Assembly (NCBI RefSeq): GCF_900115195.1
Contig: NZ_FOVO01000001.1
Span: forward strand, 62,001-126,000
DNA from: Xenorhabdus japonica
GTDB lineage: Bacteria > Pseudomonadota > Gammaproteobacteria > Enterobacterales > Enterobacteriaceae
Length of the DNA stretch: 64,000 bases
Direction: 5' to 3'
Made by a program: the position numbers and the translations under genes. This document shows positions 2,854-17,664 of this stretch, piece by piece; within the stretch, counting starts at the first letter, position 1; each line of letters begins with the position of its first letter. The notes under the pieces are model-generated. The model was not told where the DNA came from. It worked only from the letters and a program-made list of their open reading frames with translations, and did not search any database.

Positions 2854-3167
2854 ATGAATGATTTACGCTTTGCTTACTATAAATTATCTCCAGAACTATT
2901 GCAGGGGTTCCGTGCGGTAAAAGAAGGGTTGGAAAAAGCTCACTAGATGAATTAGCCGGATGGCGGGTCAGCGGTCAGTTTAGTCCCCGTGAAAAGGCAG
3001 CGTTAGAATGGGCGGAAGCTCTTACTCATATTGTGGCAACATACGCAGACGATTATGCCTATTTACCTTTGAAAGGTTATTTCACTGATCAAGAAATTTC
3101 TGATTTGACCTTTGCTATTGCGCTTATGAATGAGATGAATCGGCTTGTAATCGGAATGCGTCAGTAA
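2854..3167 (+). pseudogene. Carboxymuconolactone decarboxylase/AhpD-like gene, internal deletion
   Basis: Frame 1 from ATG 2854 encodes 30 residues (MNDLRFAYYKLSPELLQGF, then RAVKEGLEKAH) and stops at TAG 2944. A second frame, open from about 2937 to TAA 3165, encodes SLDELAGWRVSGQFSPREK and the C-terminal part ending NRLVIGMRQ. In intact family members these two pieces are separated by roughly 35-40 residues holding the CxxC...H redox centre. That block is missing and the frame is shifted, so the gene is inactive. AhpD-like proteins act in peroxide defence. The join point is near 2937-2944. Confidence 0.82.
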
Positions 3168-3203: not shown

Positions 3204-3241
3204 TTCAAGTTGCAGCGCTGCCAATAAAGCTGCAACTTGAA
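3204..3241. repeat. Palindromic dispersed repeat, copy 1
   Basis: Perfect 13-bp inverted repeat (TTCAAGTTGCAGC at 3204-3216 and its complement at 3229-3241) with a 12-nt spacer and no T tract afterwards. A related copy is at 35996-36034. It lies between the pseudogene and the 3' end of mscM. Confidence 0.6.
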
Positions 3242-3335
3242 AGAAAAAGAAGATATGTTTTATTTGGTTCTTTTATGCATCAACCAATAATCCACTAACC
3301 TGAAAAGGTATGCGTCTGGTCATGTTGCTGTAAGG

Positions 3336-9720: not shown

Positions 9721-9796
<76 letters not shown>

Positions 9797-9849: not shown

Positions 9850-9925
<76 letters not shown>

Positions 9926-9967
9926 AATTCAGGACGGTAGATTTTTATTAAAATCTGCAAGTCATAC

Positions 9968-9999
9968 AAAAAAAGCGCCCTTGATCGGCGCTTTTTTTG
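9968..9999 (+). terminator. Terminator after tRNA-Gly copy 2
   Basis: A 12-bp stem with GCGCC and GGCGC at its core, a loop of about 7 nt and seven T residues. It closes the two-tRNA unit before the inserted genes. Confidence 0.9.
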
Positions 10000-10147
10000 T
10001 TTTCAAAAATCAAAATCCTTTGGTAGATTAAATCATTCGATATAATCACTATTAGACACAAATCTGTCGTGATCTCCCTAAAGTGAAAATAAGCTCATAA
10101 CGGAAGCGCTCTCCATAACCTAGCTGTCTGCAAAGCATCTCTAATCT

Positions 10148-10170
10148 GTCTCTAAGAGTTTCTTAGGGAC
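10148..10170 (+). promoter_or_regulatory. Hairpin or operator-like inverted repeat upstream of the FAD gene
   Basis: A 10-bp inverted repeat (10148-10157 with 10161-10170, one wobble pair) around a 3-nt centre, 30 bp before the start codon. It could be a transcriptional operator or a 5'-leader hairpin; there is no T tract. Confidence 0.4.
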
Positions 10171-10199
10171 GTTTATCTATCAATGAAGAGGTAGAGCCG

Positions 10200-11636
10200 A
10201 TGAACTATGATGTCATTGTTGTAGGATCTGGCGCTATTGCAGGTTCGATTGCGTATGAACTTGCTAGTCGCCAATTGAAAGTATGCAGGTTGGGACGCCT
10301 TGATCGTAGCAATGCTGCGTCAAAAGCCGCAGGGGCAATGAATGGTTGTTTTGGTGAAGTAACCAGCGGGCTTGTCGCGAGCGATTATGGAAAACTGAAA
10401 CTCAGAATGGATCGTATTGCGAAGGATCGCTGGTCAATATGGGCGCAGCGTTTGGTCGCGTCTTCAGGGGATACCCGCCCTCTGTTTACCGCAAAAGGTA
10501 CTCATGTCATTCTTAATACCGCAGGAATGGCTGCCGTTGATAGTGGTAATTATGATGCTATAGAGAGTACTCTTCGTGAGTATAATGAACCTTATGAGGT
10601 TGTTGATCCGCAATCGATTAAGGGAATGAAAGCTAATGATTTGGTGCGTTCGTTACAAGGACTTTATATCTCAGAAGAACATGCCCTTAATTCCCACATA
10701 TTGCTTGAAATGTTGGATGCTGCATTTCTTAGGGAAGGGGGAGAGATCGTCGATAACAATGTTAAATGCGTTCTCACAGAAAATGGAGCCGTAACGGGTG
10801 TTGAAACGGTCGATGGAGTGCGCTTTACCGCAGATAAAGTGGTTATTGCGGCAGGAGTGCAGTCACTCGATATATTATCAGACCAGCTTTCTATCGTGCA
10901 GAAAATTCCTCCGCTCTTCGCTGGTCATGGCGTGTCTGTTTTACTCAAAGTTAAAAATCCCGATGAATTACCAACATCAGTGATTCGTACACCTAATCGT
11001 GCGTTTGCTTGTGGGCTACATTGTGTTCCGCGTGGTGATGGTGTTCTTTACGTCGGCGCGACCAATCTTTTGTCCAATCAACCTCATGCATATGCGACAG
11101 TTGCTACCATACAATTCCTTGTGGAGTGCGCTTATAACCAGATAAACGTTGATTTGTTTGAATCAGAGGTTCTTGCAATTCAGGTCGGCAATAGACCCAT
11201 TTCCGCTGATGGTTTTCCATTGATTGGGGAGTGTGGCATAGATGGGTTGTGGCTTGTGACTGGCACATACCGGGATGGCCTACACCAATCACCGCTTTTG
11301 GCGGATTATGCTGCGAATGCACTCATGGGGCTACCTAATTTGGAGATTGACTTAGGCGATTTTACGCCTATTCGTCGACCCTTAATCGGACTTGACCGAG
11401 ATATGACCATTTTGGAGGCTGCACAGCAAACAGCAGCGATGGGTTATGAATGTCTCTGGAATATTAGACCGGGATGGAGTGAATTAATCCATGAATGTTT
11501 ACTCAATAAGTATCGTGCGCAAGTTGAATCTATTGATGCTACCTATACGCCTCCCCCTGATTTAGTTGCATTTTCTTGTCATGACGAGCAGATAACAAAG
11601 CGGTTACGTGATTACTATAGTTGTTGGAGAAAATGA
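10200..11636 (+). CDS. DAO-family FAD-dependent oxidoreductase (ThiO/glycine-oxidase-like)
   Basis: A 478-aa flavoprotein. The N-terminal dinucleotide fold begins YDVIVVGSGAIAGSIAYEL, with Ala where the third Gly of GxGxxG usually stands. The closing FAD motif GLWLVTGTYRDGLHQSPLLA near residues 345-365 matches the ThiO/DadA type (deamination of an amine or amino acid to a 2-oxo acid). About 95 residues after this (PIRRPLIGLDRDM to the end) form a C-terminal extension I do not recognise. An AAGAGG site precedes the ATG. It lies in an insert between tRNA-Gly copies 2 and 3, convergent with the indolepyruvate oxidoreductase gene. The substrate is unknown. Confidence 0.85.
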   Translation: MNYDVIVVGSGAIAGSIAYELASRQLKVCRLGRLDRSNAASKAAGAMNGCFGEVTSGLVASDYGKLKLRMDRIAKDRWSIWAQRLVASSGDTRPLFTAKGTHVILNTAGMAAVDSGNYDAIESTLREYNEPYEVVDPQSIKGMKANDLVRSLQGLYISEEHALNSHILLEMLDAAFLREGGEIVDNNVKCVLTENGAVTGVETVDGVRFTADKVVIAAGVQSLDILSDQLSIVQKIPPLFAGHGVSVLLKVKNPDELPTSVIRTPNRAFACGLHCVPRGDGVLYVGATNLLSNQPHAYATVATIQFLVECAYNQINVDLFESEVLAIQVGNRPISADGFPLIGECGIDGLWLVTGTYRDGLHQSPLLADYAANALMGLPNLEIDLGDFTPIRRPLIGLDRDMTILEAAQQTAAMGYECLWNIRPGWSELIHECLLNKYRAQVESIDATYTPPPDLVAFSCHDEQITKRLRDYYSCWRK

Positions 11637-11690
11637 GTTGTTGGAAGAAATGAGTAACTGGAAGGAATTAAAATTGCTGGAAATAATGGA
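11621..11690 (+). repeat. 17-bp tandem repeat across the FAD gene stop codon
   Basis: 11621-11637 and 11638-11654 share 15 of 17 bases (TTGTTGGA then GAAAATGAG or AGAAATGAG). Two more diverged units follow at 11655-11673 and 11674-11690. The TGA stop (11634-11636) lies in the first unit. Confidence 0.6.
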
Positions 11691-11715
11691 TTATGAAGAA
11701 AAGCAGAATCTCGAA

Positions 11716-11752
11716 AAGTGTTGGACATTACTATTAATAATGTCCAACACTT
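11716..11752. terminator. Bidirectional terminator between convergent genes
   Basis: A perfect 15-bp stem (11716-11730 with 11738-11752) and a 7-nt loop, between the FAD gene (+) and the indolepyruvate oxidoreductase gene (-), whose stop codon begins at 11759. Confidence 0.8.
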
Positions 11753-11756
11753 ATTA

Positions 11757-14700
11757 TCACATCATTTTTTGCAATTCTTTCAGCAATGTTTCCTTACGTT
11801 CCATCATGTTTTTTATCGCTTTGTGTTTCACATGACCAAAACCACGTACTTGATTGGGAAGCTCTGCGAGTTGCTGACAGGTTACCAAATTATAGCGATC
11901 CATTTTTTCGATCAAAACATCAATTAATCGCTCATATTCAAGCAGCAAATTTCTTTCCTGCTTACGCTCTTCCTGATAGCCAAAAATATCGAAAGCAGTA
12001 CCACGCAGTGGCTTACATGCAGCGAGGAAACGCAATACAGGAATGATCCACGAGCCATATTCTCTTTTTCCTCGCTGGCCTGTGCGGGGATCTTTGCGAT
12101 TAAAGAGCGGAAGGCTGAGGTGAAAGCGGATGTTATCCGTATTATCAAATTGCAAGCGAAGCTTATCGAAAAAATCGGTTTTGACATAGAGTCGGGCGAC
12201 TTCATATTCATCTTTATATGCCATCAATTTAAATAAATTTTCAGCAACGGATTTAGTAATTTCTTCTGCATCGATCTGCTGGGCCACCATTTGGATTTGG
12301 GCAATACGACTGAGATAACGCAGCGCATATCTTTCATTTTGATAATCCACCAGAAATTGATACCGATGCATAATGAGGTCGTCCAGACTTTTTATATTTT
12401 CTGACGAGGTCATATTGAGGTTTTTTTGTAGAATATCTGGTTGTACTGCCGCGATTCTTCCTATACAGAAAGCCCGTCGGGCATGATCTGCGGAGGAGCC
12501 TAGTTCTTGAATGACATTATCAATGGAAGATAATGTGATTGGGATTTTGCCGAGTTGCCAAGCATAACCAATTAATATGATATTTGTTTGGTTCCTGTCA
12601 CCAACTAGATGAGCAGCCATCATTTCTGCATCAATGGAGCGTAATGTCTGTGTGTGTTGACTTAGGACATCTAGCATTTTGCGATGATCCAAATTCAGCA
12701 TAGGGGTGCGAAGCATAGTACCGATTTGGGTTTCGTGGGTGTTCAATATGCATTTTGTTGATCCCCTCGACATCACTTCCAGAGAGTTTTGTCCTGTTGC
12801 TGCTACTAAATCAGCGGCGATGATCAAATTGGCACGTCCGCGATCGATCCTGACTTGGTGCAGTTTGTCCTGATCATGGCATAACCGAACATGAGCTATG
12901 GCTTCCCCTCCCTTTTGAGCAAAACCAGTAAAATTCAGCAGACTGACGAAGCAATTATCCAATTGTGCCGAATTTGCAAGCAGATGCCCAGCAGTGATGA
13001 TTCCTGTACCGCCGATACCGGCTAACAGGATTTCATAAGGTGTTTCGGTAGAAGCCAGCGTTGGTAGTGGTAATTTGTGGATAATTTTGTCTAACTCAGT
13101 ATGTGGGATGATTTTGCTGAGATCTGCCCGTGGATTGGCATTCTCGACAGTGATAAAGCTGGGACAAAATCCTTTCAGGCAAGAGAGGTCAGAGTTGCAA
13201 ATATGTTGGTCTATCTTACGTTTAGTGCCTAAAAGCGTTTTAACCGGAATGACGGCGAGGCAATTTGATTGTATTTGACAATCACCACATCCTTCACAAA
13301 CCAATTCATTGATGACGGCATGGCTCGTCACTTTTGGCATCAAGCCCCGTTTTCTTTTACGGCGTAGTTCCGTGGCACAGATTTGATCGTAGATGATGAC
13401 GGTTACACCAACGATATCTCGAAGACGTTTTTGTACATCTTCGAGATAATCCCGTTCATAGAGTTTCACATTGGCAGGAAGGCTATTTTTACCTTTGTAT
13501 TTATCAAGATCATCCGTCACGATAACCACTTCTTTCACACCTTCTGCCAGCATCAAAGAAACAATTTGCGATATGGTTATATTCCCATCCAGCGGCTGCC
13601 CACCTGTCATTGCTACGGCATCATTGAATAGCAATTTGTAAGTAATATGACTCCCAGCGGCAACTGATTGGCGAATAGCTAAGTGACCAGAATGGAAATA
13701 GGTGCCATCTCCCAGATTTTGAAAGACGTGGGAGCGATTCACAAACGGAGCATGTCCTATCCAGTCGATACCTTCTCCCCCCATAGGCAAGAGGCCGCTT
13801 CCGGTGTTGCGATCCATCCACGCTGCCATGACATGGCATCCTATGCCAATCTGGGCTTGGCTACCTTCCGGTAAGCGTGTTGAAGTGCTATGAGGGCATC
13901 CAGCGCAGAAATAAGGTGTGCGTTTTGGCAAAGCGGCATCGTGCTGAATGGGATTTATGGACCATTCCGGAGGCACGGAAAGAAATAGATTGAATTGCTG
14001 TAACCATCCTGAAAGTGGGGCGGCAACCCGTGAAGGGCGTAACTCAACGTCAGCGGGCAACAATTTTTTACCAAGATGGTTATGCTTACCTATCAGGTTG
14101 GTATTTTTTTGTAATTTAACCAATTGATGTGCCAACAGCATTTCAACTATGGCCGCTTTTTCTTCAATGACAAAAATATTATTGACTTGAATGGCAAGTT
14201 TGCTGAGAAGTGGTGATAAAGGATAAACCAAGCGGACATGGAGAAGGGCAACGCCTTGTTGGGCCAGTTCTGAAGGCGTTAAGCCTCCGACACGCAAGGC
14301 TTCCATAACATCCTTGTGGGCTTTGCCAACAGTGACTAATAAAGCGTGTGGATGCCCGCAAGGGGCGAGTAGGTAATCAATGGGATTAAGTTTAGCGAAA
14401 TCTTCAACGGCTTTCAGTTTATAGGCCAAACGCTTTTCAATTTGCGGGCCGGGAAGATCAGGCCAGCGCCAATGCAGCCCATCAGGGCCAGAGTCAACCT
14501 GCGGAATTTTATAATCAGGGAATGGCTTACTTTCTATGGCAGTACCACTTTCCACAATTTCACTGATTGCCTTAAAACCAAACCATGCACCACTTATACG
14601 TGATGCCGCCCAGCCCCATAAGCCGACATCACGATAATCAGCAATTGATGCAGGATGTAAGATGGGCATAGTCCACGCCATCATTGCGAGATCAGATTGA

Positions 14701-15137
14701 TGGGACATGGAAGAAGAGACACAACCATGATCGTCTCCGGCGATAACAAGCACACCTCCGTGCGGAGAGGAACCGTAGGCATTGCCATGTTTAAGTGCAT
14801 CACCCGAACGATCTACGCCGGGTCCTTTGCCGTACCACATCCCAAAAACACCGTTAACCTGCCTGTCAGGATCTGTTTCGACTTTTTGCGTGCCGATCAA
14901 TGCATTGACAGCAAGATCTTCATTGACAGCAGGCTGAAAACGAATCTTGGCTTGGATAAGTTCTTTGCTGTGTTGCCATAATGTTTGATCTAAACGGGCT
15001 AAAGGTGAACCACGATAGCCCGAAACAAATCCTGCTGTGTTGAGATTGTGGATTTCATCTAGCTCAGCTTGAGCGAGTAGAAGGTCAACCAGCGCTTCAG
15101 TGCCCGTGACAAATTTAGATTGATAATATCGAGCCAT
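11757..15137 (-). CDS. Indolepyruvate ferredoxin oxidoreductase, fused form
   Basis: A 1126-aa thiamine-diphosphate enzyme that oxidatively decarboxylates aryl-pyruvates (indolepyruvate, phenylpyruvate) to aryl-acetyl-CoA, passing electrons to ferredoxin. An N-terminal pyruvate-oxidoreductase-like alpha region includes GYRGSPLA. The TPP-binding domain has FCAGCPHS, then GDGTYFHSG and NDAVAMTGG around residues 405-530. A [4Fe-4S] motif with Cys614, 617, 620 and 626 follows, and a gamma domain begins at GIGGTGIITAG near residue 705. The single-chain layout is typical of proteobacterial IOR, not the two-subunit archaeal IorAB. It sits in the tRNA-Gly insert and is rare in enterobacterial core genomes. 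Confidence 0.9.
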   Translation of the reverse strand: MARYYQSKFVTGTEALVDLLLAQAELDEIHNLNTAGFVSGYRGSPLARLDQTLWQHSKELIQAKIRFQPAVNEDLAVNALIGTQKVETDPDRQVNGVFGMWYGKGPGVDRSGDALKHGNAYGSSPHGGVLVIAGDDHGCVSSSMSHQSDLAMMAWTMPILHPASIADYRDVGLWGWAASRISGAWFGFKAISEIVESGTAIESKPFPDYKIPQVDSGPDGLHWRWPDLPGPQIEKRLAYKLKAVEDFAKLNPIDYLLAPCGHPHALLVTVGKAHKDVMEALRVGGLTPSELAQQGVALLHVRLVYPLSPLLSKLAIQVNNIFVIEEKAAIVEMLLAHQLVKLQKNTNLIGKHNHLGKKLLPADVELRPSRVAAPLSGWLQQFNLFLSVPPEWSINPIQHDAALPKRTPYFCAGCPHSTSTRLPEGSQAQIGIGCHVMAAWMDRNTGSGLLPMGGEGIDWIGHAPFVNRSHVFQNLGDGTYFHSGHLAIRQSVAAGSHITYKLLFNDAVAMTGGQPLDGNITISQIVSLMLAEGVKEVVIVTDDLDKYKGKNSLPANVKLYERDYLEDVQKRLRDIVGVTVIIYDQICATELRRKRKRGLMPKVTSHAVINELVCEGCGDCQIQSNCLAVIPVKTLLGTKRKIDQHICNSDLSCLKGFCPSFITVENANPRADLSKIIPHTELDKIIHKLPLPTLASTETPYEILLAGIGGTGIITAGHLLANSAQLDNCFVSLLNFTGFAQKGGEAIAHVRLCHDQDKLHQVRIDRGRANLIIAADLVAATGQNSLEVMSRGSTKCILNTHETQIGTMLRTPMLNLDHRKMLDVLSQHTQTLRSIDAEMMAAHLVGDRNQTNIILIGYAWQLGKIPITLSSIDNVIQELGSSADHARRAFCIGRIAAVQPDILQKNLNMTSSENIKSLDDLIMHRYQFLVDYQNERYALRYLSRIAQIQMVAQQIDAEEITKSVAENLFKLMAYKDEYEVARLYVKTDFFDKLRLQFDNTDNIRFHLSLPLFNRKDPRTGQRGKREYGSWIIPVLRFLAACKPLRGTAFDIFGYQEERKQERNLLLEYERLIDVLIEKMDRYNLVTCQQLAELPNQVRGFGHVKHKAIKNMMERKETLLKELQKMM

Positions 15138-15510
15138 AATTTTGACCCTCTCTCAGGAGAATAATCATCTAAGTAACAACCAAAATTGATGCTAATCTAT
15201 TTCTACAAAATACTTACGACAACCATAAATCTTGTTAGATGTTGGTTATTTGTTTATTTAATGTTAATTTCCGGCTATTGAGTATTCAAGATAACTATTG
15301 AGGTTATGGTATGGTTTTTTTGTATCAAACTCCGGCGAATGTCTTTTGAGCGTTTAGCGCGGGAGTGGATGCAAAGGGGTTGCCATCTTATCTGAACATG
15401 TTCATAATGGCGCCCATATCCTGATATGCAGGTTTTACGGGTTATATCGTTAGCCGAACTCAAAATTAGCATTCAGGCATCTCAGGTTAATCATGTTAAC
15501 CATCAGTGAC
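15138..15510. other. Non-coding right edge of the tRNA-Gly insert
   Basis: No convincing gene. It contains the promoter region of the oxidoreductase gene (minus) and one copy of a diverged repeat (about 15376-15420, see 15866-15908). An inverted repeat GGTTAA/TTAACC lies at 15485-15501 just before tRNA copy 3. I could not find a clear sigma-70 promoter for that tRNA. Confidence 0.5.
15376..15420. repeat. Diverged dispersed repeat, copy A
   Basis: Contains TTGCCATCTTA and TTCATAATGGCGCC. Copy B at 15866-15908 has TTGCTATCTTA and CTCATAATGCCGCC; roughly two-thirds of the aligned bases match. The two copies flank tRNA-Gly copy 3 in the same orientation. Confidence 0.4.
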
Positions 15511-15586
<76 letters not shown>

Positions 15587-16301
15587 ATTCTCTTCATACT
15601 ACTTTTCTACATTAATTATTTCCTATATCTTAAATCCGTGGAATTTTAATAAACCTAGCTTAGAACCATAGCTTCCGTTGATTAAGTTAATCCATCTGTT
15701 ATTCATTATCACTATGTTAAAAAGTAAGTCCTTTTTTTGTTGGCACTGGGAAGGCAATGTATCTCCATGATCATCATTGTAAGCCTGCGGTTTTAGCTTA
15801 ATCTCACCCCAAATATAACTCCCTATTAAAAATACAATTTCACTCAAAAATAAATTGTTCATAAAGCGCTTGCTATCTTACTTCAACAGGCTCATAATGC
15901 CGCCTCATTTTTGAAGAGGCAGAGGAAAATTTCTCCATTAGCGTCTAGAATGGATGAGTGGACTATTACTTTGCTGCTGATTTCTGGTGTTTTCTACTAG
16001 AATTCAATTCTTGTTTTTTATCCACAGAATTTAACATTACCGCTCTATTGAGTCACCTGATGATGCTCGTCTTATTACACAGAGTTATCCACAGGAGGCT
16101 ATTTCGTATTTGGCTTTTCTAACTTATCTATTAAAATAATAGTTAAAGCTTAACTTATTGATTAATTGAAATAATTGATCTGATTTCAAAATATCGTTAT
16201 CAATATTCATTTTCTATTTGTTAGTTGATCAGAAAAGTATTTCTATTTTATTCACAAGGAGATAAAGGATTTTTTTGACAATAAATTCAGCTGACTGATT
16301 A
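15587..16301. other. Long AT-rich non-coding region between tRNA-Gly 3 and queG
   Basis: About 715 bp without a supported gene. A minus-strand open frame at 15623-15862 (79 codons) has no recognisable family and no ribosome binding site. The right part holds the DnaA-box cluster described separately. Copy B of a diverged repeat is at 15866-15908. Confidence 0.6.
16018..16256 (+). promoter_or_regulatory. DnaA-box cluster, candidate datA-like locus
   Basis: Three perfect 9-mers matching TTATNCACA, all in one orientation: TTATCCACA at 16018-16026, TTATCCACA at 16085-16093 and TTATTCACA at 16248-16256. The surrounding DNA is AT-rich and non-coding. In E. coli the DnaA-titrating locus datA lies in this neighbourhood (glyVXY/queG, about 94.7 min, from memory). 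No convincing IHF site was found by eye. Confidence 0.6.
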
Positions 16302-17459
16302 TTAAGCATCCCGGGGTAATCCTTTGGTTATTGCTCGTATCAATCGTTTTTGTTGTGAGGTTTGAACTTCAATTGTATTAGCATTTCGGCGAACCATTTG
16401 TTGAGCTATAGCCCAGTGGATATGTTCATCCAAAACTTCACTTAAACCGATTCTTTTTTCCAACGCCAACACGATATCAGCTTGATACGGCGCGTTGCCT
16501 AAAGCGACGGAAATGTTGCGTAGCCAGCGTAAATATCCAATACGGCGAATTGCCGAGCCTTCTGTGATACGCAGGAACTTTTCCTCACTCCAATTGAATA
16601 GATCTAGTAGCTCAGGAGTATGCAGTGCTGCTCGTGGGCTGAAGTCGGCTTCATCCGTCAATTGAGAAAAACGGTTCCAGGGACAAATAAGCTGGCAATC
16701 ATCACAGCCATAAATCCGGTTGCCCACCAGTGGACGAAATTCTTCCGGAATAGCACCTTCCAATTCAATAGTCAGATAAGAAATGCAGCGTCGGGCATCT
16801 ATCGTGTAAGGCTCGACAATAGCACCCGTTGGGCAAGTTGTCATACAGGCTACACAGCGTCCACATTGCTCATCTTGTGGAGCATCAATGGGTAAGGGAA
16901 GGTTAACCAGCAGCTCACCAAGAAAAAACCAGGAACCTGATTCACGGTTCAATATAAGTGAGTGTTTACCAACCCATCCAAGCCCTGCTTTTTCTGCGAG
17001 TGGGCGTTCCATTATAGGGGCGGAATCGACAAAAGGACGAAAATTCAGCGTTCCCTGATATTCATGAGTGTCACAATATTCTTGAATCTTGTCACCCAGT
17101 TTTTTGAGACGTTGACGCAGCAGTTTATGGTAATCTCTGCCTAGCGAATAGCGGCTGACATAACCCATTTGCGGATTGTTAAGTGTACTGGCAAACGCGG
17201 CCTTAGCGGGCAGATAATTCATGCGTATACTGATAACCCGCAAAGTTCCCGGCAGAAGTTCATGAGGGCGTGCACGCATCATGCCGTGACGATCCATCCA
17301 GTCCATTTCGCCGTGATATTTCTTATCAAGCCATTCCTGTAGTTTTGGCTCTTCTGCCGATAAATCGGTGTCACAGATGCCGACTTGCTGGAAGCCAAGG
17401 GAAAGGCCCCATTGCTTGATATTTGTTGCTAGAAGATTCAGATCGAGGGGGGTTGTCAT
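16302..17459 (-). CDS. queG: Epoxyqueuosine reductase QueG
   Basis: A 385-aa cobalamin- and iron-sulfur-dependent enzyme for the last step of queuosine synthesis in tRNA. Two ferredoxin-like cluster motifs are visible: CGRCVACMTTCP and CDDCQLICPWN, each supplying Cys ligands, and the N-terminal region carries the B12-binding part. The length is close to E. coli (379 aa). It lies next to the tRNA-Gly/datA-like region as in E. coli. The gene nnr (yjeF), which usually separates it from tsaE, is not here. Confidence 0.95.
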   Translation of the reverse strand: MTTPLDLNLLATNIKQWGLSLGFQQVGICDTDLSAEEPKLQEWLDKKYHGEMDWMDRHGMMRARPHELLPGTLRVISIRMNYLPAKAAFASTLNNPQMGYVSRYSLGRDYHKLLRQRLKKLGDKIQEYCDTHEYQGTLNFRPFVDSAPIMERPLAEKAGLGWVGKHSLILNRESGSWFFLGELLVNLPLPIDAPQDEQCGRCVACMTTCPTGAIVEPYTIDARRCISYLTIELEGAIPEEFRPLVGNRIYGCDDCQLICPWNRFSQLTDEADFSPRAALHTPELLDLFNWSEEKFLRITEGSAIRRIGYLRWLRNISVALGNAPYQADIVLALEKRIGLSEVLDEHIHWAIAQQMVRRNANTIEVQTSQQKRLIRAITKGLPRDA

Positions 17460-17664
17460 GGAATATCAAATTACTGCTGAAAGAAGGCATTTAGCTTAAC
17501 ACAGTAGGGATTGAATACAAAAAATGTAGTATGTGACCTTACGGCAGTGTAGAAGATGCTAAATGGTAATGTCTGAATTATGTTATGGTTATTGGTTAAG
17601 CTGTTTAACTGATATGTCTACCTGATTAGTCTCTAATTCAATAAATCAAAATAGATATTTTTCG

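Follow-up and report, generated by a model that had tools for sequence, protein, structure and literature searches.

A predicted datA orthologue and a putative tRNA-less promoter directed into it in Xenorhabdus and other Enterobacterales

Judged by its sites, their spacings, synteny and conservation, which agree, the non-coding gap between tRNA-Gly and queG of Xenorhabdus japonica is an orthologue of datA. It lies in a 64-kb stretch of DNA (hereafter the window). The explanation that best covers all results, and that we hold to be highly probable, is a Xenorhabdus datA with predicted IHF-dependent hydrolysis of DnaA-bound ATP, in which transcription from upstream would help to release IHF. A datA orthologue was to be expected here; the part for which open-access full texts gave no account is a promoter at datA that has no tRNA behind it. 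The papers cited here studied datA in E. coli, and datA may well have been noticed earlier in other species. Related material in cited papers includes a datA-related study that surveyed 59 E. coli genomes (PMC4585315), a stated accumulation of DnaA boxes in origin-proximal DNA of E. coli strains and of Salmonella enterica (PMC12371093), DARS2, which is stated to be conserved (PMC4245941), and analogous clusters in Bacillus and Streptomyces (PMC5742627).

Sites and spacings in the tRNA-Gly/queG gap

Features are given with their coordinates in the window.

9721-9796 and 9850-9925, + strand: tRNA-Gly(GCC), copies one and two
15511-15586, + strand: third tRNA-Gly(GCC) gene, preceded at 15380-15408 by its own predicted promoter (TTGCCA-17-CATAAT)
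15870-15905, + strand: predicted orphan tRNA-type promoter towards datA, from consensus scan, conservation and near-constant distance to box 2
15906-15955, + strand: predicted transcript start, conserved (mean pairwise identity 0.87)
16018-16026, + strand: DnaA box 1 (TTATCCACA), exact match; its E. coli equivalent is ATATCCACA, 67 bp upstream of box 2
16073-16081, + strand: low-affinity DnaA site TATTACACA, candidate for box 7, 12 bp upstream of box 2 and with 2 mismatches
16085-16093, + strand: DnaA box 2 (TTATCCACA) with CAGAG directly 5′, exact match, invariant across 28 Xenorhabdus
16151-16163, + strand: predicted IHF site TAACTTATTGATT, perfect match to the consensus TAAnnnnTTGATW; identity 0.93 in Xenorhabdus
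16248-16256, + strand: DnaA box 3 (TTATTCACA), exact match, conserved
16302-17459, − strand: queG, stop side facing datA (convergent)

The initial annotation had proposed three perfect DnaA boxes in the same orientation at 16018-16256, and we found all three to be exact and on the + strand. The gap from the tRNA-Gly end (15586) to the stop side of queG (16302) measures 715 bp and has only 31% GC, a composition that would favor a chance cluster of boxes within AT-rich DNA. Such a cluster has a negligible probability: dinucleotide shuffles of the gap carried a mean of 0.037 boxes on both strands and reached three in 0/5000 cases, and the box positions are kept at fixed spacing across genera. The earlier chance expectation of about 0.02 was right in order of magnitude, next to 0.037 by shuffling and about 0.036 per 715 bp from the genome-wide count of TTATNCACA (179 in 3.56 Mb). 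The window as a whole holds 9 boxes against 3.4 expected, a number reached in 0/100 shuffles.

We then compared the locus with E. coli datA (glyVXY-datA-queG), whose minimal form comprises box 7, box 2, the IHF site and box 3 in one direction (PMC5742627). In E. coli strain 746 (L001), box 1 ATATCCACA is located at 3095, box 2 TTATCCACA at 3162, the IHF site TAATCTATTGATA at 3227 and box 3 TTATTCACA at 3324. The spacings in the window and in E. coli are 67 and 67 bp from box 1 to box 2, 66 and 65 bp from box 2 to the IHF site, and 97 and 97 bp from the IHF site to box 3; box 2 and box 3, in the same orientation, are thus 163 and 162 bp apart. The suggested search for degenerate boxes and an IHF site was productive, yielding a low-affinity site before box 2 and a perfect IHF consensus between boxes 2 and 3 (IHF and DnaA box consensuses were taken from PMC10950094). 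On its own, the IHF consensus is weak evidence, being present in 418/5000 gap shuffles. The low-affinity site at −12 from box 2 carries 2 mismatches in the window and also in E. coli and, by the described order, direction and affinity, would be E. coli box 7. No counterpart of E. coli box 4 was found at the equal offset in the window, where 6 mismatches occur; box 4 is stimulatory in E. coli datA (PMC5742627) and non-essential in vivo.

The window and E. coli datA therefore have in common boxes 1-3, the low-affinity site, the IHF site, their spacings and orientation, with queG on the far side in both. The claimed match to the position of E. coli datA holds for tRNA-Gly/queG placement, and box orientation, IHF consensus and near-identical spacings agree with it. 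Besides the lack of box 4 at the equal offset, the two loci differ at the tRNA side: the last tRNA-Gly and box 1 are separated by 431 bp in the window versus 18 bp in E. coli 746, the tRNA-Gly genes form two groups (2+1), unlike in E. coli, and the window has a separate predicted promoter of tRNA type, its −35 beginning 148 bp upstream of box 1. Beyond queG, nnr lies between queG and tsaE in E. coli and is absent in the window, where this interval (17460-17664) is only 205 bp long.

The window's genome encodes DnaA, IHF alpha, IHF beta and Hda, each scoring above its curated cut-off. In this draft assembly, dnaA and datA are on different contigs; in five relatives with long contigs, queG/datA lies about 271-382 kb (6-9% of the contig) from dnaA, two of these distances assuming a circular contig. 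In E. coli, datA maps at 94.7 min and oriC at 84.6 min (PMC10950094).

Conservation of the architecture in relatives

Conservation of the boxes in related genomes had been set beforehand as one point on which the datA proposal could fall. The QueG search matched 49/60 relatives and gave no hit in 2 of 30 same-genus genomes; the three boxes are kept at the same places in 28/28 same-genus queG loci, the window's own counted. Among the best 80 of 597 named queG loci, all those with at least 90% QueG identity belong to Xenorhabdus, the closest being X. anantnagensis (97%). The same 80 include 44 Enterobacterales loci, of which 44 have TTATCCACA at the box 2 place, 22 Vibrionaceae loci with a related box cluster, and 14 loci of other groups with no exact box within 900 bp of queG (377 bp in one locus).

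In total, 148 box-2 loci were collected, of which 137 are distinct and eleven repeat another locus. Box 3 is found 158-166 bp from box 2 in 144/148 and is absent at the expected distance in 4. Between boxes 2 and 3, 126/148 loci have a loose IHF motif and 22 lack one even under the loose pattern; in all 124 loci having both, the motif and box 3 are 94-99 bp apart. The −12 low-affinity site shows 1-3 mismatches in 136/137 distinct loci, while only about 6.5% of neighbouring offsets have 3 or fewer. The single exception, L196 (G242), is probably not datA: it has no queG match, a box spacing of 141 bp and, where box 7 would be expected, 6 mismatches; it was retained in the counts. For queG-derived loci, box 2 was chosen by CAGA[GC] directly before it, a filter that removed four loci, all from other families; the invariance of CAGA[GC] is partly circular in these loci since the same letters had served as filter.

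A strict box 2-TTGAT-box 3 pattern was present in 117/392 family genomes, as a single copy each, and its reversed version in 0/392. The 275/392 genomes in which it is absent include many below about 2.5 Mb, and the pattern requires an exact TTGAT. A pattern without queG match was seen in three g122 genomes, in G187 and in G242 (L196). We also considered ACAGASTTATCCACA as an order-wide datA signature (103/148 genomes, reversed 0/148) and rejected it as unspecific because it occurs at least twice in genomes from several other families.

Taken as a comparison of sequences, these results show that the datA architecture recurs through Enterobacterales. datA, which the cited papers studied in E. 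coli, is readable across the order as an old and precise architecture that gives spacing rules for DnaA-ATP hydrolysis. By homology with E. coli, IHF at 16151-16163 would fold the DNA so that two DnaA groups meet; DnaA-bound ATP would then be hydrolysed and extra initiations prevented. Another explanation is that DnaA is only titrated here, with no stimulation of ATP hydrolysis. datA was first seen as a titration site (PMC5835720), and three perfect boxes would bind DnaA regardless; however, titration requires neither an IHF site nor a fixed spacing, and both are kept (94-99 bp in 124/148 loci). We regard titration alone as very unlikely.

In Vibrionaceae, a datA-like cluster was observed by queG in 22 loci (among L074-L109), about 340 bp past the queG stop in many. 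It contains ACAGASTTATCCACA in 22/22, followed some 8-10 bp further by an inverted box-like TGTGGRTAA; an IHF-like TAAnnnnTTGwT is present in many, along with TTTTCCACA-like boxes, and many have tRNA-Gly/Met arrays upstream. The geometry of this cluster is unlike that of Enterobacterales datA. datA or a relative of it may be older than the split between Enterobacterales and Vibrionaceae.

The conserved neighbourhood bears on one further claim. The tRNA-Gly next to the boxes had been described as an insert, and this was mistaken, since tRNA-Gly is adjacent to datA in E. coli and in most genus-group loci (33 of 40 further loci). In this sample of one locus per genus group, tRNA-Gly ends 82-143 bp before box 2 in 33, none is present in 6 and 1 is too short; in the 33, a promoter of the form CGTATAATGCGC usually precedes the first tRNA-Gly copy. 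In the window, 499 bp separate the last tRNA-Gly end from box 2, and copies two and three are about 5.6 kb apart with two genes between them. Elsewhere in Xenorhabdus (27 loci), the distance from box 2 back to the nearest tRNA is 0.3-11.7 kb, and in 3 genomes no tRNA was found within the 2.6-4.8 kb examined. We infer that tRNA-Gly is the old neighbour and the inserts are new, adjacency of the tRNA being the older state. The two genes of the window (9926-15510) encode a ThiO-like FAD oxidase and a protein of the indolepyruvate ferredoxin oxidoreductase family, and the 2+1 split, with roughly 4-6 kb between the parts, was found in many Xenorhabdus.

A predicted promoter directed into datA

The predicted orphan promoter consists of a −35 TTGCTA (15870-15875), a 17-nt spacer, a −10 CATAAT (15893-15898) and a GC-rich discriminator GCCGCCT (15899-15905). 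No tRNA lies downstream of it, and queG converges from the opposite side. The −35 starts 215 bp before box 2 in the window; in the other Xenorhabdus (n=27) this distance is 213-217 bp for 26 loci and 204 bp for the remaining one, regardless of the tRNA distance. A consensus scan of 15200-16310 gave no excess of promoter-like sites (4 versus 4.4 in shuffles); what speaks for the promoter is its conservation and the comparison of loci.

Over the 28 Xenorhabdus loci, the segment immediately upstream has a mean pairwise identity of 0.40, the promoter 0.90, the following 50 nt 0.87 and the remaining leader 0.68. Identity reaches 0.95 in the T-run with box 1, 1.00 in CAGAG with box 2, 0.93 in the IHF site and 0.97 in box 3, and is 0.72, 0.60 and 0.72 in the three datA spacers. 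The promoter is nearly as conserved as the IHF site in this genus. This profile bears on the idea of a functionless, decaying relic of a lost tRNA-Gly gene. tRNA-Gly remnants do overlap or adjoin the promoter in some lineages; a relic is nonetheless quite unlikely given an identity of 0.90 versus 0.60-0.72 in the datA spacers, and a distance to box 2 that hardly varies, whereas that to the nearest tRNA ranges from 0.3 to 11.7 kb.

The conserved start of the predicted transcript raises another possibility, that the promoter belongs to a small RNA gene unrelated to datA. The identity of its first 50 nt (0.87) exceeds that of the datA spacers, and a consensus fold somewhat beats column shuffles (z −2.3); on the other side, the single-sequence fold is not significant (z −1.1), no Rfam family matches the transcript up to E 5, no terminator-like site was found in 15200-16310 (0.7 expected), and the sequence following the promoter varies among genera, datA being the constant downstream feature. 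A small RNA with conserved structure is not convincing, and a small RNA gene as owner of the promoter seems to us unlikely, if still to be reckoned with. A small protein was also considered: within the genus, the 16-codon frame (MDEWTITLLLISGVFY, 15950-16000) lacks conservation, and it was rejected because, by eye, it is disrupted in at least L007, L008 and L011 through a frameshift, a premature stop or loss of the start codon.

The arrangement resembles the PglyV-X-Y read-through of E. coli (PMC10950094) in that a promoter with GC-rich start lies upstream and points into datA, and in the T-run abutting box 1; unlike PglyV-X-Y, the predicted promoter of the window has no tRNA behind it. E. coli PyjeV is likewise close to datA and aimed through it, but this putative promoter overlaps box 7 and has a limited role (PMC10950094), whereas the orphan promoter lies 215 bp before box 2.

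We further compared loci across genera. Loci with a tRNA ending no more than 200 bp from box 2 were classed as attached and all others as detached (L068, with tRNA-Gly ending 240 bp before box 2, counts as detached). In each locus, the 330-bp stretch upstream of box 2 was searched and scored for sigma-70 promoters that have a GC-rich start, using assumed base frequencies. Scores were obtained for 129 distinct loci (67 detached, 62 attached), eight being too short. At a cut-off of 11, which like the 200-bp limit was our own choice and was fixed after the scores were known, 60/67 distinct detached loci carry a predicted promoter aimed at datA, mostly tRNA-like (27/27 Xenorhabdus and 33/40 others); so do 6/62 attached loci. 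Five of these six hits are directly upstream of a single adjacent tRNA-Gly, presumably as its own promoter, and the sixth (L046) looks like chance. The sense strand beats the antisense strand in 63/67 detached versus 18/62 attached loci. Among the detached hits, L134, L153 and L205 were equalled by 4-6 of their own 60 shuffles.

Detached lineages include Xenorhabdus, Photorhabdus, Proteus, Morganella and Pectobacteriaceae. By genus group, every detached member has the promoter in 13/18, counting Pragia, whose hit (L071) is not of the TTGC/GC-rich type; group g46 has it in 1/4. No promoter scoring 11 or more was found in Tenebrionibacter, Limnobaculum, L196 and the reduced genome L203. Placed on a QueG tree by a quick method, the promoter label requires 5 changes, gains and losses not being distinguished, of which starred branches force at least 3; g46 was labelled ‘promoter’ by hand though 3/4 of its loci score below 11, and g122, without queG, is missing. 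Most lineages without an adjacent tRNA still have a predicted promoter at this place, which argues for selection. In G394, G260 and G333 (L156-L158, one genus group), the datA pattern and an orphan tRNA-type promoter occur without queG match, the nearest tRNA-Gly being 1.5-1.9 kb away.

Possible role and origin of the promoter

Transcripts that start at the E. coli tRNA-Gly promoter pass the datA IHF site around initiation, and deleting the promoter or inserting a terminator leads to more IHF binding and moderate inhibition of initiation (PMC10950094). Transcription is insufficient alone and an unknown factor is required, according to the authors, and removal of the terminator/attenuator barely shifted initiation timing (PMC10950094). 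Similarly, transcription entering the Xenorhabdus datA from upstream would help to release IHF and could come from the dedicated promoter at 15870-15905 besides the tRNA-Gly genes; in the window, the third tRNA-Gly promoter (15380-15408) and the orphan promoter, both predicted, could each supply it. We infer that datA keeps transcription without its tRNA and that the orphan promoter supplies it. More broadly, transcription would be a conserved part of the switch, lineages detached from the tRNA using a private promoter of stable-RNA type, in some of them from a decayed tRNA-Gly, for growth-linked removal of IHF; to this tentative proposal we give slightly less than even weight. The orphan promoter offers a natural experiment on whether read-through of datA is a side effect of the tRNA operon or a selected control, and its direction into datA suggests that transcription may be part of the working of this brake.

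An origin of the promoter from tRNA was examined in 24 loci with 500 shuffles each (raw values, after an earlier first pass over detached loci). In L193 (group g175), the sequence that precedes and covers the −35 can be aligned with two parts of tRNA-Gly, its D arm and its anticodon arm (0/500 shuffles), and TTGCCA of the tRNA-Gly anticodon loop coincides with the −35. The same TTGCCA/−35 coincidence was observed in another lineage, in L030 (0/500 shuffles). It was seen more weakly in L209 (0.004), L210 (0.05), L208 (0.064) and L199 (0.08), and the signal was weak in Photorhabdus (L036, 0.044; L151, 0.082); the remaining 16 of the 24 loci gave values above 0.1, among them L112, the one Xenorhabdus locus tried, where no part of a tRNA was recognised. 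Group g175 includes Pectobacterium, as judged by the identical datA sequence in L210 (g175) and L039. It is plausible from these alignments that a tRNA gene turned into a promoter, in some lineages only. In Photorhabdus L036, an 11-nt tRNA 3′ end remains between the promoter and box 1, which could alternatively be the remnant of an island attachment site. Finally, in one genome of the Photorhabdus-like group g162, only an 82-residue queG stretch with a stop was matched beside an intact datA pattern (L242, G410:C3:120760-121005).
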